Source of the DNA: Vulcanimicrobiota bacterium
GTDB lineage: Bacteria > Vulcanimicrobiota > Xenobia > Xenobiales > JADMJV01
Length of the DNA stretch: 64,000 nt
Direction of reading: 5' to 3'
Assembly (NCBI GenBank): GCA_019637395.1
Contig: JAHBVR010000001.1
Span: 434,001-498,000, forward strand
This document shows positions 54,381 to 60,832 of this stretch, one piece after another. Both the position numbers and the translations under genes were made by a program. The notes beneath the pieces were generated by a model. That model did not search any database. It had not been told where the DNA came from and worked only from the letters and a program-made list of their open reading frames with translations. Within the stretch, counting starts at the first letter, position 1, and every line of letters begins with the position of its first letter.

Positions 54381-55457
54381 ATGCCAACTTGCGCCCGGTG
54401 TGGCGCGGCCGCGCAGTTGCTGGCCAACTTTTGCGCCCGCTGTGGTCAGGACTTGCGCCATTCCGCCGGCTTGCCTGTGGAGACCCAGTTGCTGGAGAAT
54501 TGGACTCAGCCCGAAGATGACCCTATAGAGTGCCTCCTGGGCAGCCATACGCTGCTGGCGGCCCTGCGCCAAACCGGCTGGGCGGATTTTTGGTCTCCCT
54601 ATCAGGTGGCTCGCTTGCAGCGACTGCCCGTGCAGGCGGGCGCCGAGGCGGCGGCCCTGGCCGATAACCTGCTGGTCAGCCTGCGGAGCCAACAGGTGGA
54701 AGTGCTTCATTTAACCCCGGCACTACGCCAGGATGCCTGTCGCTTTGATCGCGGCAGTCGCTTTGCCGCCCCGGGCCCGCTGGCTTCCCCGCTGGCGGCG
54801 AAAGGGCGGAAGCTGGCCTGGGTGGCCGGTTCAGAACTGGTCTGTCACCAGGTGCTGCCGAGCGGGCTGGCACCGGCCTGGAGCCGACCTTGGAAGGGTC
54901 TCTGTAACGCTTTAGCCTGGAACGAAGAGGGTCTTTGGGCGCTGCAGGGTGAGAGTCTGGCTCTCTACCGAGCGGAGGACGGGGAACGTCTGACTCGGTT
55001 ACAATTGCCGGCTCCACCCCTCAGCCTCAGCCTGCAGGGCCGGGAAGCCTGGGTTTGTGGGCACCAGGGCGAACTGTGGTTGTGCCATTCCGGCACTATC
55101 CAACGCAATTGGCCGGGACGCGGAGACACCTGCTTCAGCTTCGCCACCAACGCCTCCCACGTGATTCAATGCTCTGGACGGCGCCTGCACGTCCTCAACC
55201 AGCGTTCCGGCCGCCAGCATTTGCTGGAAGTTCCGCAACCTTGCGTGCTTCCGCCTGTGCTGGGACCCGGCTGGGCGGTGCTGGTCAGTTACGAAGGCAT
55301 GGTCTACCACCTGGCCCTGGACCAGGAATACCCTCGGGTGGCCCAGGCCCGCCGGCCCTTCAGCTCCTTTGAACCGATTATGATTCAGCCGGTGCTGGCC
55401 GGCCCCCGTTTGTTCTTAGCCGGTCCGGAGGGGCAATTAGCCGGCTGGGTCCTGTAA
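54381..55457 (+). CDS. Zinc-ribbon protein with propeller-like repeats
   Basis: 358 residues. MPTCARCGAAAQLLANFCAR and the following CGQD form a double-CxxC zinc ribbon. From about residue 130 on there are repeated strands in PQQ/WD-propeller style (KLAWVAGSELVCHQV, LWALQGESLALYRAEDGERL, AWVCGHQGELWLCHSG, VIQCSGRRLHVLNQRSG). It probably works with the divergent tubulin-like/Hsp70-like operon, which has the same kind of zinc ribbon in the Hsp70-like protein. The ATG at 54381 is preferred because the ribbon starts there; no strong ribosome-binding site is visible. The 3' end overlaps the convergent dioxygenase gene by 21 bp. Confidence 0.7.
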   Translation: MPTCARCGAAAQLLANFCARCGQDLRHSAGLPVETQLLENWTQPEDDPIECLLGSHTLLAALRQTGWADFWSPYQVARLQRLPVQAGAEAAALADNLLVSLRSQQVEVLHLTPALRQDACRFDRGSRFAAPGPLASPLAAKGRKLAWVAGSELVCHQVLPSGLAPAWSRPWKGLCNALAWNEEGLWALQGESLALYRAEDGERLTRLQLPAPPLSLSLQGREAWVCGHQGELWLCHSGTIQRNWPGRGDTCFSFATNASHVIQCSGRRLHVLNQRSGRQHLLEVPQPCVLPPVLGPGWAVLVSYEGMVYHLALDQEYPRVAQARRPFSSFEPIMIQPVLAGPRLFLAGPEGQLAGWVL

Positions 55458-56096
55458 TGGCACGAAGTCGATAAGCAAGATGTCGCGGTAGCCGTCCGAG
55501 TCGCTTTCGATGGGTGTGGCGCTGTGCCAGAGCTTACCTTGAAAATAAAGGGTGTCCCAGCGCTGCAACTGGAGCCAATGGAAAACCGGTCGTTTTTCCT
55601 CGTCGTAACCGGTAAAGACACCGCCGCGAATGTGCCGGCGCGCGATCAAGTGCTGCACGGTGTAAGTTTCCGCATCGCGATGGACACCTTCGGGTGTGGG
55701 CAGGCCGGGGCGGGACGGACGAGCCAGGATGCGCACGCAGTGAATGCCGACCTGCCAATCCCCCCGTAAATGAAGGACGCGGGCATCCTCCTGAATCACC
55801 GCCCGCAGGAACGGGTTGGCCAGAATCTCCGGAAGCAGGGGGGCGAAGGTTCTCTCCACGCCGCCGTTGAGGGGATTGTCGACCAGTTCCTGATAAATGC
55901 TGTTGCCGGAGAGGTCGCTCAGGCTCCCGTCGCGCCAGAGCAGACGGCTGTAGCGGCGAAAACGATAACACCCTCCGTCCGCCATGTGCCGGTCCTGAAT
56001 CAGATCCCCCCAGCTGGCCACCAGCTGGTCTTCACCGGATACCTGGGGAACAGCCCATTGGGCGGCGGGCACGGCCCTCCAACCTTCAACCAACAC
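55437..56096 (-). CDS. 2-oxoglutarate/Fe(II) dioxygenase-like protein
   Basis: 219 residues of the 2OG-Fe_Oxy_2 type. ADGGCYRFRRYSRL, LNGGVERTFAPLLPE, and the iron site EGVHRDAETYTVQHLIARRH (His-x-Asp) with a late HSATPIESDSDGYRDILLIDF (second His and the 2OG Arg) match the family. Known members hydroxylate free amino acids (isoleucine dioxygenase group). The start is uncertain: GTG 56096 or TTG 56093, overlapping the hydrolase stop, gives the right length. It is cotranscribed with the alpha/beta-hydrolase. Confidence 0.8.
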   Translation of the reverse strand: MLVEGWRAVPAAQWAVPQVSGEDQLVASWGDLIQDRHMADGGCYRFRRYSRLLWRDGSLSDLSGNSIYQELVDNPLNGGVERTFAPLLPEILANPFLRAVIQEDARVLHLRGDWQVGIHCVRILARPSRPGLPTPEGVHRDAETYTVQHLIARRHIRGGVFTGYDEEKRPVFHWLQLQRWDTLYFQGKLWHSATPIESDSDGYRDILLIDFVPLQDPAG

Positions 56097-56901
56097 GCAG
56101 GTCCACCCCCACAGGAAGGGATTCCGGCCAGGCGATGGGCCGTTGTTGGCGTAACGCCAGCCAGAACTCCCCGGTGAGCTGCGCGATCGTTTCCAGAGCG
56201 GGAGCCACCGCCAGCCCGATGCCGGCGAAAGCCATATGGTCAGCACCCTCCAGCACAGCCAGCGCCTTGCGTCCGGCCGGCACCGCGTCGTAGGTTGTGA
56301 GGCGCTGTTCAAAAGTCACTCCGGCGGGCATACCACTGTCTTGGGTGCCTGTCAACAGAAAGGCCGGCAAATGCAATCCGGACAGCCCCCGGCGGCTGAC
56401 CGCCGAATCAGGCGGTTGAGCCGACATGAGCACCACGCCCGCCCAATCCAGGCCAAATTCCCAACTTTGCGGACCCTCGGGCAACAACGCCTCTACTCCT
56501 AGAGTAGCCAGAGCCGTATAGCTGCCGAAACTGTGGCCGGCCAAACCGGCCCACCCGGAGCCGGGGGAAAGCACCCGCCTGACGTAGGCCAGGTCCTGGG
56601 GGCGCGCTTCCAGTTCCGCCTGATCGCGCACTCTGCGGCCAACCGCCTCGGCCAATTCCGCCTGGCGCATGCCCGGCTGGTGGATGGCCTTAAGGATATC
56701 CGCGTTGCTGCCGACATGCTCGATAACGGCCACCTGGAAGCCCAGGCGGCTCCAGGCTCGGCCCAAATAGCCGTAGCCCGCCCGGCCCCCGCCAAAACCT
56801 ACCGAGAAAAACAGCCAGCCCTGAAACTCCCCCTGGTAGGGATAAAGACCTACCGGAATGGCTCGTTGTCGAGCCGAGTCAAAAAGATCCAGGATTTCCA
56901 T
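56086..56901 (-). CDS. Alpha/beta-hydrolase (PAF-acetylhydrolase/dienelactone-hydrolase-like)
   Basis: 271 residues, starting MEILDLFDSARQRAIPVGLY. The opening is typical of the predicted dienelactone hydrolase/PAF-AH group, which begins with a D-x-x-R-x-R-x-I/L-P-V strand. The nucleophile is in LAGHSFGSYTAL, the Asp probably in TGTQDSG, and the His in EGADHMAFAG. No signal peptide, so cytoplasmic. ATG 56901 fits the domain start; ATG 56943 would add a Cys-rich leader not expected. Overlaps the dioxygenase start by 11 bp. Confidence 0.85.
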   Translation of the reverse strand: MEILDLFDSARQRAIPVGLYPYQGEFQGWLFFSVGFGGGRAGYGYLGRAWSRLGFQVAVIEHVGSNADILKAIHQPGMRQAELAEAVGRRVRDQAELEARPQDLAYVRRVLSPGSGWAGLAGHSFGSYTALATLGVEALLPEGPQSWEFGLDWAGVVLMSAQPPDSAVSRRGLSGLHLPAFLLTGTQDSGMPAGVTFEQRLTTYDAVPAGRKALAVLEGADHMAFAGIGLAVAPALETIAQLTGEFWLALRQQRPIAWPESLPVGVDLRVG

Positions 56902-58230: not shown

Positions 58231-58887
58231 TTAAGGACAACTGATTGAGGTAACGGTATGTGTATCACAAGTCACCTTGGGCGATTGGACTACACCATCG
58301 CACCGGTAGGTGACAGTGAAGGTTTTTTTGGTGCCCGTGCAAGGATCAGGTCCTGGGAGTTGAAGCGCTCCAGCGCCCGGCCAGGTCTCATACTCTAGCA
58401 GGTTTCCGCCCGCCGCCACAATCCGGGCGTTTAACTGGGTAGTGAAATCAGCGGCGATGCAAGGGCCGCTTCCGGCCTTAGCACCACATGGACCTCCGTC
58501 GAGGGCCGGGCCGTCATAGATGGCGCTGACGACTACCAGTCGAGCGCTGGCAGCGGCAACCGGCAGGGGAGCTACGATGCTGGTAAGGAGAGTCAGCCCG
58601 GCCACCTGCAGGAATGTTCGGCGCTCCTGATTGGCCAATGCAGGACTGTCTTCAAGCAGTCTCCTTATCTTCAATTGCTTCAGGGCTAGATCGACCACTG
58701 CTTGTGCCTGCGCTTCCCACTTAGGGAACTTCAGCGCAAAAGCTTCTTGTATTTGGACCTCACCCTGCTGGACCAGCTTCAAAATATAGCTGGCTTCCGG
58801 ACTGAGAAGCCAGCACTCGTGAGTGGTGGCATCATAGCAAAGCAATTCGTCACCAACCGGTTGAAATATTATTTTGTCGGATTGCAC
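58231..58887 (-). CDS. PqqD-domain protein with internal twin-Arg segment and six-Cys exported tail
   Basis: 218 residues in three parts. Residues 5-80 are PqqD-like (IIFQPVGDELLCYDATTHEC, WLLSPEASYILKLVQQGEV), a fold that binds peptide leaders or carries its own substrate. Residues 88-114 are NQERRTFLQVAGLTLL plus a hydrophobic stretch ending AAAS, a Tat-like export or anchor segment. Residues 115-218 form a small exported domain with six Cys (134, 143, 183, 196, 207, 217). GTG 58887 has AGGGAG 5-6 nt upstream. An in-frame ATG at 59100 would add 71 low-complexity residues and overlap the preceding stop; I consider it less likely. It is downstream of the HPr-kinase-like gene. It may itself be the maturation substrate. 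Confidence 0.72.
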   Translation of the reverse strand: MQSDKIIFQPVGDELLCYDATTHECWLLSPEASYILKLVQQGEVQIQEAFALKFPKWEAQAQAVVDLALKQLKIRRLLEDSPALANQERRTFLQVAGLTLLTSIVAPLPVAAASARLVVVSAIYDGPALDGGPCGAKAGSGPCIAADFTTQLNARIVAAGGNLLEYETWPGAGALQLPGPDPCTGTKKTFTVTYRCDGVVQSPKVTCDTHTVTSISCP

Positions 58888-59092
58888 GAGGACTCCCTGT
58901 ACGCGAGACGCGTCATGAGTGCTCCTATGCACCGGTGAAACACGCCTGCTTTGATGTCGAGTTTTACGACGACAAAACAGAGAATTTCCTCTCGGGTTAT
59001 ATGGTAGTTTATGGCTGCCGGCAACAGTTGATTTGGCAATACAAACCGGTAAACCCGGACTAGTAGAAATATCCACAAGACTAGGAGTAATT

Positions 59093-59821
59093 TCAAGCAT
59101 CCCCGGTGGCTCGCTGCAGTTCGAGCGCGAGAGCCTTGGCGCACGAATCCGCGTCGGCGCGTGTGCCCTTGAATATCTTGGCGTTCTCACAGATGGAGCT
59201 GAGGGCGGCCATTGCTTGGGGTAACAGCGACTGTCCGCCAGCGATAATCCGTAGCATTTCCAGCGCACACTGACCGGCAGTTTGCGGGCTGTAGTGCAAA
59301 GGCTTACCCGGTTGGTAAGGAAGCCAGGCGACCAATTCGACTGAGGCCCCGGGGCTCGTCTGATCTGCCAGCGCATCTCCATGATAGGGAAGCACGTTCA
59401 ACGCATCGTCGAAAATTGCCAGACGATCGGAATAGCGGATGGCTCCTCGTTGGCACAACGCCTCCACCAAGCGGGTGGTCCCTGAGAGGCGGGGGCCAGG
59501 GAACACCCACGCCTTCCCCTGCCAGGCCACTACTCCTGCTCGGAAAATCAGGTGCGCCTTAGCATGTTGGGCGATGCTTTCGTGAAGTCGGGCGAGCAAA
59601 AACTGTCGAACGAACTCGGGGTCATGATTAGGAAGTAGCATGTGATGGTCATGCTCCAACGAAAGCAGACTCTTCTGAGACTGAAGCTGAAAGATTGAGT
59701 CAGGCTCTTCAAAGCTTTGCTCACGGACTCCGGGTAACAGGGCTCTAGCCTGGCTCTCTGCGAGGTCTCCCTCGGCCAGGATGCGTATACGCGCTCCATG
59801 GAAGATGTAATCGGCTTGCAC
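59093..59821 (-). CDS. HPr-kinase-like protein with altered P-loop
   Basis: 242 residues, related to the short HPr-kinase/phosphorylase-like proteins that accompany PqqD in peptide-modification loci. The region VFPGPRLSGTTRLVEALCQR corresponds to the usual FPGxSxSGK[ST]TLVxAL. The P-loop Lys is replaced by Thr (positions 109-116 read GPRLSGTT), so ATP binding in the usual way is doubtful. The next conserved block, YSDRLAIFDDALNVLPY, is retained. The start is GTG 59821. It is divergent from the MauE-thioredoxin gene (57 bp between) and upstream of the PqqD gene. Confidence 0.72.
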   Translation of the reverse strand: MQADYIFHGARIRILAEGDLAESQARALLPGVREQSFEEPDSIFQLQSQKSLLSLEHDHHMLLPNHDPEFVRQFLLARLHESIAQHAKAHLIFRAGVVAWQGKAWVFPGPRLSGTTRLVEALCQRGAIRYSDRLAIFDDALNVLPYHGDALADQTSPGASVELVAWLPYQPGKPLHYSPQTAGQCALEMLRIIAGGQSLLPQAMAALSSICENAKIFKGTRADADSCAKALALELQRATGDA

Positions 59822-59878
59822 GATTCTGACAATACCTGATACTGGACACAGTTCCTCTGAATGCGGTAAGGGTAATAC

Positions 59879-60832
59879 ATGATTAAGATGTTTGTTTACT
59901 CGGAAGGAAGCATTGCTTTGGGACTGGCAGGCACTGCTTTGCGTCTGACTCTGGCGGGCCTGCTGGTCGCCTCCGCCACCGGCAAACTTTGGGACATGTC
60001 CGGCACACGCCAGGCCGTCTCTGAGTTTGGCGTGCCACCAGCCTACTCCAACCGCGCCAGCCAGATTCTAGTGGCGACAGAGTCCGCGATTGCGCTAATG
60101 CTGTTACTCGATCCCTTGCTGTACCTGGCGGCCTGGCTGTGTAGCCTGCTCTTTTTCATCTTCTCTCTTGGAGTGGCCCGAGTCTTGATCCAGGGACGAA
60201 CCCCCGACTGCCATTGCTTGGGGCAGTTGCATTCCGTGCCGGTAGGACCAGGCATTTTGCTTCGGAACTGCATACTGGTTTTGTCCTCGCTCTACCTCAT
60301 CCGTAACCCTGGTTATCCCTTGACAGCTTCACCGCTGAGCACCCTGGCTACGCTGCTGGGTGCGGGTTGTATCGGATTGGCCAGCAGTCATTTGGCCCTC
60401 TGGAAGAGCGTCAAGCAGACAGCCCCAACTCATCTCAAACGTGGTCAACTGGCGCCACACATCAATTTGACCGCGGAAAACGGGCGCCAAGCGGCGCTAC
60501 ATAGCGTTTTGCTCCCCGATCGTCGGAATCTACTAGTTTTTTCTTCTCCGAAGTGCGGTTTGTGCACGGAGTTGCAGCCGGAACTGCAACAGTGGCGGAA
60601 AGTCCTGCAACAGAAAGTCAATATCGTTCTCCTTGAGAGAGAAGTCGGTGAACCTGAAGAGACGTGGGTAGAGGGCTCATGGCGGGTCGAGAACGCAGCC
60701 TTGACAACCTTTAAGCTCAACGGCACCCCGTCCGCCGTGCTTCTCGATGAGCAGGCACGAGTCGTCTTCTCCCGGCCGGCCGTCGGGCCTGAGGAAATCG
60801 TAGCTCTAATTCGAACCTCTCTGGTGGAATAA
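59879..60832 (+). CDS. MauE-like membrane protein fused to a thioredoxin domain
   Basis: 317 residues. The first 165 form four TM helices of the MauE/DoxX type, with the CHC pair (PDCHCLGQL, Cys111 and Cys113) at the place where MauE has its CxC. Residues of about 185-317 are a TlpA-like thioredoxin with an active site SSPKCGLCTELQPE (Cys226, Cys229). MauE supports disulfide formation in methylamine dehydrogenase maturation, so the fusion would oxidise Cys residues outside the membrane. The neighbouring six-Cys PqqD protein is a natural candidate substrate (inference). AAGGG stands about 7 nt before ATG 59879. Confidence 0.85.
   Translation: MIKMFVYSEGSIALGLAGTALRLTLAGLLVASATGKLWDMSGTRQAVSEFGVPPAYSNRASQILVATESAIALMLLLDPLLYLAAWLCSLLFFIFSLGVARVLIQGRTPDCHCLGQLHSVPVGPGILLRNCILVLSSLYLIRNPGYPLTASPLSTLATLLGAGCIGLASSHLALWKSVKQTAPTHLKRGQLAPHINLTAENGRQAALHSVLLPDRRNLLVFSSPKCGLCTELQPELQQWRKVLQQKVNIVLLEREVGEPEETWVEGSWRVENAALTTFKLNGTPSAVLLDEQARVVFSRPAVGPEEIVALIRTSLVE

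Follow-up and report, generated by a model that had tools for sequence, protein, structure and literature searches.

PqqD domains usually recognize the leaders of ribosomally made peptides, and RREs are adaptors delivering peptide precursors to modifying enzymes. The locus considered here raises the question of what such a domain is doing in the same chain as a twin-arginine segment and a small six-cysteine domain, with an HPr-kinase-like (HPrK-like) gene and a MauE-thioredoxin (MauE-Trx) fusion gene as neighbors. A preliminary description of the window (the whole stretch of 64,000 nucleotides that was analyzed) had proposed a new, self-contained arrangement in which a PqqD-tethered exported protein is matured by disulfide formation. 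Open reading frames, Pfam and NCBIfam searches and structural models place all three genes where that description had them (Table 1). The reading that we favor, with a probability of roughly 0.55, is that the product would be a secreted or membrane-held lectin-like domain riding on an RRE-Tat leader, with an HPrK-like holder inside the cell, export by the Tat pathway, and disulfides made outside by MauE-Trx.

Table 1. Features of the PqqD-Tat cassette, in window coordinates
Feature	Position	Strand	Detail or basis
PqqD-Tat-lectin protein gene	58231..58887	-	218 aa, GTG start
PqqD/RRE domain	58633..58884	-	family HMM E=1.8e-30 (HMM includes the window sequence); model similar to lasso B1 5v1u/5v1v/6jx3
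Twin-arginine signal segment: ERRTFLQ, hydrophobic stretch, AAAS	58549..58632	-	RR invariant in relatives
Six-Cys tail, SUEL/L-rhamnose-binding-lectin-like domain	58231..58551	-	six-tail profile vs 5h4s, CSL3; reversed control without lectin
HPr-kinase-like gene, catalytic residues lost	59093..59821	-	242 aa
Degenerate P-loop GPRLSGTT (Lys to Thr)	59474..59497	-	alignments
SDE motif changed to SDR	59423..59431	-	alignments
MauE-thioredoxin fusion gene	59879..60832	+	317 aa
CxC (CHC), MauE part	60209..60217	+	invariant, 7/7 cassette-linked MauE proteins
CxxC (CGLC), thioredoxin part	60554..60565	+	invariant, 6/6 proteins reaching the domain

The HPrK-like gene lies upstream of the product gene on the same strand, and the MauE-Trx gene is divergent. 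Translation of the product most likely starts at the GTG at 58887, with AGGGAG upstream, the ATG of the longer frame (59382) falling inside the HPrK gene. No separate precursor peptide was recognized between the cassette genes, and an Rfam search of the window returned zero matches. The absence of a radical SAM enzyme or B2 protease, as first described, is borne out by a Pfam scan of nine flanking genes, in which neither these nor a cyclase or other RiPP enzyme was found; the flanks encode a 2OG-Fe dioxygenase, a tubulin-like protein, an M74 peptidase and a SpoIIE phosphatase. The dioxygenase (55437-56096) is the nearest other enzyme to the cassette, and its gene overlaps a hydrolase-like gene (together 55437-56901), ~2 kb off the cassette. 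Elsewhere in the source genome (G000, 7.66 Mb), a YfbK/VWA protein with a fused PqqD-like domain is followed by an NTP_transf_5-like gene (L061:4910-7827, contig 11).

The product chain reads, in order, as a PqqD-like part (residues ~1-80), the motif ERRTFLQ (88-94), a hydrophobic stretch ending in AAASA, and a 106-residue six-Cys domain. The Pfam PqqD model does not match the window copy; it does match the other eight of nine members of the family alignment (E<=1, best 6e-9). An AlphaFold model of the window protein is confident across residues 1-80 (pLDDT ~90). A Foldseek comparison of the model with the PDB puts leader-peptide-bound lasso B1 RREs in the first six places (target TM 0.71-0.75, prob 1.00, E 0.0097-0.17), so that, as modeled, the PqqD part has the winged-helix RRE fold. 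The twin arginines are invariant in 9/9 aligned relatives in one alignment and 27/27 in another, which argues that what the preliminary description observed is more than chance. The window segment fits the pattern of a Tat substrate (RR-x-x-L, hydrophobic stretch, AxA), but ~85 residues precede the RR. Most relatives likewise have an AxA-type end after the hydrophobic stretch, and TatC is encoded twice in the organism's own genome. We conclude that the product is probably Tat-exported, and cleavage may follow.

What, then, is the cargo? A profile built from six related tails (three in G000, two in G007, one in G008) matches rhamnose-binding lectins in the PDB (5h4s 1.6e-15, CSL3 3.2e-10, CSL2 1.2e-5), and no lectin is matched by the reversed profile as a control. 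In the paralogue C7, whose residues 9-222 share 39% identity with the window protein, the tail on its own finds 5h4s at E=2e-13, with the bacterial RemA as a weak match (0.036). The window tail searched alone gives no significant lectin match (best lectin 3.8), and its assignment therefore rests on the family. AlphaFold modeled the window tail with low confidence, too weak for use, from an alignment holding no relatives with such a tail. By sequence comparison, the tail family is homologous to the SUEL/L-rhamnose-binding lectins, and on this ground the idea that the six-Cys tail is an unknown RiPP core is rejected. Because the alignment begins midway through one lectin repeat and runs on into the following repeat's first strand, that strand (CEG...C) appears relocated to the C-terminus, an apparent circular permutation of the family relative to the lectin repeat. 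DPCTGTKK preserves the lectin motif DPCxGTxK in the window tail, and the YGR position reads IYDG. The product is a putative binder of rhamnose or galactose.

The disulfide pairs of rhamnose-binding lectins are given, in the available text of PMC3269628, as 1-3, 2-8, 4-7 and 5-6. In this numbering the six-tail alignment has the window tail keeping cysteines 3, 4, 7, 8, 1 and 2 and missing 5 and 6, so that three of the four pairs are complete and the missing two residues are exactly pair 5-6. Three relatives with four cysteines each (L016, L017, L018) additionally lack 4 and 7, and the tails of L014 and L015 have eight. The six cysteines are thus only partly conserved among aligned relatives, and the losses follow disulfide pairs, a pattern that would be consistent with disulfides in the cargo.

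The identification of an HPr-kinase-like neighbor holds at the level of fold and probably not at that of catalysis. The window protein scores E=4e-6 against TIGR04352, below cut-off, and its model (pLDDT 91) has the fold of the PEPCK/HPrK superfamily, with PEPCKs outranking HPrKs among the matches. Catalysis by HPr kinase employs the lysine of the P-loop (Walker A) and the acid of the SDE motif; as both are lost here (Thr, SDR), the window protein is, judging from these alignments, probably no kinase. For comparison, an HPrK alignment scan of named genomes was used, from which 80 loci, the best 80 of 146 relatives, were taken. These hold 85 HPrK matches, present by construction because the loci were chosen by HPrK; 84 matches have both motif columns, and 81 of the 84 keep the Lys and D[DE]. 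The three exceptions (L084:5394-6071, L085:4443-4766, L142:3900-4658) all stand beside MauE-Trx, as do the degenerate copies in the window and L077. Intact HPrK beside MauE-Trx in L101 and L103 makes this association a tendency, strongest in the window's class, and not a requirement. Three SUEL-type loci (L014, L015, L018) carry a further P-loop-less HPrK-related gene adjoining the product gene or within 1.4 kb of it, and we would regard these P-loop-less proteins, like the degenerate copies, as candidate pseudokinases. In the window's class, 22 PqqD-Tat places are known and nine of them lack an HPrK-like gene at a distance of up to 3 kb, which tells against the favored reading; two of the nine (L019, L020) are on contigs of less than 8 kb.

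The third gene encodes a protein with Pfam matches to MauE (1.4e-22) and thioredoxin (1.2e-6). MauE-Trx occurs, in a single copy each, in 5 of 18 genomes of the window's class; in four of the five a PqqD-Tat gene lies within 1 kb, and in four of the five a degenerate HPrK gene is divergent to MauE-Trx, the contig ending in the fifth. In the Actinobacteria L101 and L142, NTP_transf_5-like, PqqD-Tat-Cys and MauE-Trx genes occur together with a divergent HPrK, and the set adjoins genes reading like Wzz and polymerase. The three-gene set, sought in other genomes, thus recurs, and the association first noted in the window stands. The MauE-linked tails are mutually unlike, a lectin in the window and other Cys-rich tails in G005, G006 and G009. 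Elsewhere such tails have 12, 13, 14 and 19 cysteines, as against six in the window, which again tells against the favored reading, and a median of 6 in the other 50 tails, a contrast that would weaken on inclusion of the window (6), L020 (8) and the second, Cys-free gene of L084, all left out of the MauE-linked set. That the three genes are neighbors by chance, and the PqqD domain a relic, would accord with the divergent orientation, with the many PqqD-Tat genes that have no MauE-Trx, and with four further genomes of the phylum in which the short stretch read around a protein with MauE and thioredoxin domains shows no PqqD-Tat gene. This reading is already disfavored, and we consider it very improbable, given the spacing of 1 kb or less in four of five class genomes despite such unlike tails, and the recurrence in Actinobacteria.

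The window cassette belongs to a much wider family. The gene caller and family HMMs used to trace it were custom and simple, and the HMMs derive from the earliest loci identified, in which matches are accordingly expected. The named loci (best 80 of 146) come from Acidobacteria, Gemmatimonadetes, Chloroflexi, Cyanobacteria, Actinobacteria, Myxococcales and Deltaproteobacteria, Planctomycetes, Armatimonadetes/Abditibacteria and others, and 52 of these 80 HPrK loci encode a PqqD domain that leads into a hydrophobic stretch and then a tail. Most such ORFs come immediately after HPrK and on its strand. RR falls in the tested stretch in 55 of 56 PqqD-hydrophobic ORFs, the exception, L146, reading ARRE outside it. 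Among 55 complete tails (three of 58 PqqD ORFs were dropped from this count, two without a hydrophobic stretch and one without a stop), 10 have no cysteine after the RR; in 43 of the remaining 45 the cysteine count is even, usually six or eight, as would be expected for disulfides. A loose knottin-like pattern, C-C-CC-C-C, occurs in 18 of 56 ORFs as a pattern match only. The lectin tail was not found in the named loci (best 80 of 146 relatives) and was found in just 3 of 147 genomes of the window's phylum, all of one family. A match at 1e-5 is seen in 33 of 149 genomes of that phylum, in many of them across the PqqD part only, and in an Acidobacteriota sample 21 of 247 match at 1e-15, one of them the seed. 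A common set in Cyanobacteria is ruled out, with matches in 2 of 194 genomes, both seeds. Six PqqD-Tat proteins tested against NCBIfam reached no model above cut-off.

Several members depart from the usual form. L055:6622-7542 and L064:6447-7379 encode PqqD-Tat proteins with long, Gly-rich, Cys-poor tails, and L057:5350-6330 and L060:5592-6554, from two species of the window's genus, encode PqqD-Tat proteins whose tail is Cys-rich and whose N-terminus carries a long additional part. Three cyanobacterial loci (L113:6834-8119, L129:6600-8107, L137:6811-8078) have tandem PqqD-Tat genes whose leaders are almost the same but whose tails differ, suggestive of cargo under diversification.

This variety of tails bears on whether the product is released at all. 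Since one chain links an inside and an outside domain, the protein could be a bitopic membrane receptor, in which the PqqD winged helix stays inside, the RR segment serves as an uncleaved anchor, and PqqD reports sugar binding by the outer lectin to the HPrK-like partner. Genes whose predicted proteins read like polysaccharide synthesis surround L016, L018 and L020, and the first and second of these are SUEL-type copies, a setting that would suit such a sensor. We nonetheless think a receptor unlikely, because the hydrophobic stretch of most relatives is succeeded by an AxA-type end, and because tails that vary freely, in named loci down to ~30 residues with six cysteines, are a better fit to a released product.

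A further possibility is that the protein, carrying an RRE in cis, serves as a RiPP-type precursor whose tail would be modified by HPrK and NTP_transf_5. An NTP_transf_5-type gene is found in 42 of the 80 named HPrK loci (best 80 of 146; the family Pfam-confirmed for two proteins), the RRE is closest to lasso B1, and a chemical precedent exists in PsmK and PsmN, which, in the text available from PMC9266682, modify the lasso peptide pseudomycoidin with a phosphate and then a sugar or nucleotide. For the window this explanation, too, seems improbable to us: the kinase residues are lost, no NTP_transf_5 was found there, the tail is a lectin-type domain, and neither protease nor cyclase is present in the flanks scanned.

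Returning to the lectin-like domain on an RRE-Tat leader, we picture the product as a rhamnose-binding-lectin-like domain behind a very long leader, comprising a whole PqqD/RRE followed by a twin-arginine signal. The RRE would remain cytosolic as a handle for the HPrK-like partner, whose part, given the loss of its catalytic residues, is most likely confined to binding the precursor and keeping hold of it up to export. The Tat pathway would then export the tail, with a cut possible at the AAAS site. Outside, MauE-Trx, its membrane CxC exchanging electrons with CxxC, would make or correct the three disulfides needed by the lectin fold. In other loci and phyla the same RRE-Tat leader would carry other cargoes (Cys-rich, knottin-like, Gly-rich), and an intact HPrK together with NTP_transf_5 could phosphorylate and then decorate them, by analogy with PsmK/PsmN, a step probably lost in the window.

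More broadly, we think it rather probable that these loci represent an undescribed and widespread class of exported proteins. Their interchangeable leader, a complete RRE with a Tat signal, would carry disulfide-rich cargoes unrelated to one another (lectin, knottin-like and others) and would be served by HPrK or pseudo-HPrK, often by NTP_transf_5, and in some lineages by a dedicated MauE-Trx. A PqqD-tethered, probably Tat-exported, Cys-rich product adjoining a disulfide-type enzyme, as the preliminary description had it, is thus supported by the sequence comparisons. Its claim of a new, self-contained arrangement survives in part: a literature search, with most subscription papers outside its reach, found no paper describing the PqqD-Tat/HPrK/MauE-Trx arrangement, and the cassette is one member of a wide family whose usual third gene is NTP_transf_5, with MauE-Trx as an occasional addition. 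Here the precursor would contain its own RRE, placed before an export signal, and the cargo can be a folded, lectin-type domain; the cassette would tie RiPP-type recognition, Tat export and disulfide formation together in a testable way. Orphan HPrK, NTP_transf_5 and MauE genes of environmental bacteria gain a likely substrate, and the family suggests that bacteria possess many small disulfide proteins, among them some whose Cys pattern is knottin-like.

Four known systems invite comparison. The HPr-rel-A system (TIGR04352 HprK_rel_A, TIGR04353 PqqD_rel_X) likewise sets an HPrK-related protein beside a PqqD-type domain, and both window genes match it weakly. The window scores, however, are 26 of 200 bits (TIGR04352) and 13.5 of 35 (TIGR04353), those of named relatives are 52-63 of 200 and up to 30.9 of 35, and the window PqqD shares one chain with a Tat signal and cargo; with scores below both NCBIfam cut-offs, membership is ruled out. 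Lasso B1 proteins (TbiB1 5v1u, 6jx3), with the HPrK-type kinase and nucleotidyltransferase of paeninodin and pseudomycoidin, share the RRE fold, and the window's relatives have companions of both types, whereas the window has its RRE in cis with a Cys-rich, folded cargo; neither a B2 protease nor an Asn-synthase-like cyclase occurs in the flanks scanned, which rules out a lasso-peptide cluster. A compact PqqD, Transglut_core3 and Asn_synthase set resembling a canonical lasso-peptide cluster is seen in isolate SZAS-1 of the window's genus (L071:3616-5865, G005). With the SUEL lectins (CSL3, 5h4s) the window shares tail homology, disulfide pairs and DPCxGTxK, and differs in an apparent circular permutation that puts the first strand at the C-terminus, in one disulfide fewer, and in the PqqD-Tat leader. 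In the mau system, MauA of methylamine dehydrogenase is a Cys-rich cargo matured with MauD and MauE, and here too MauE and a thioredoxin-type protein accompany a Cys-rich, probably exported protein; in the window, by contrast, MauE and thioredoxin are in one chain, the cargo is unrelated, and no other mau gene was recognized in the scanned flanks. MauE is thought to act in disulfide formation, according to the available text of PMC7794033, and Tat export followed by external disulfide formation by MauE-Trx would parallel the mau system.
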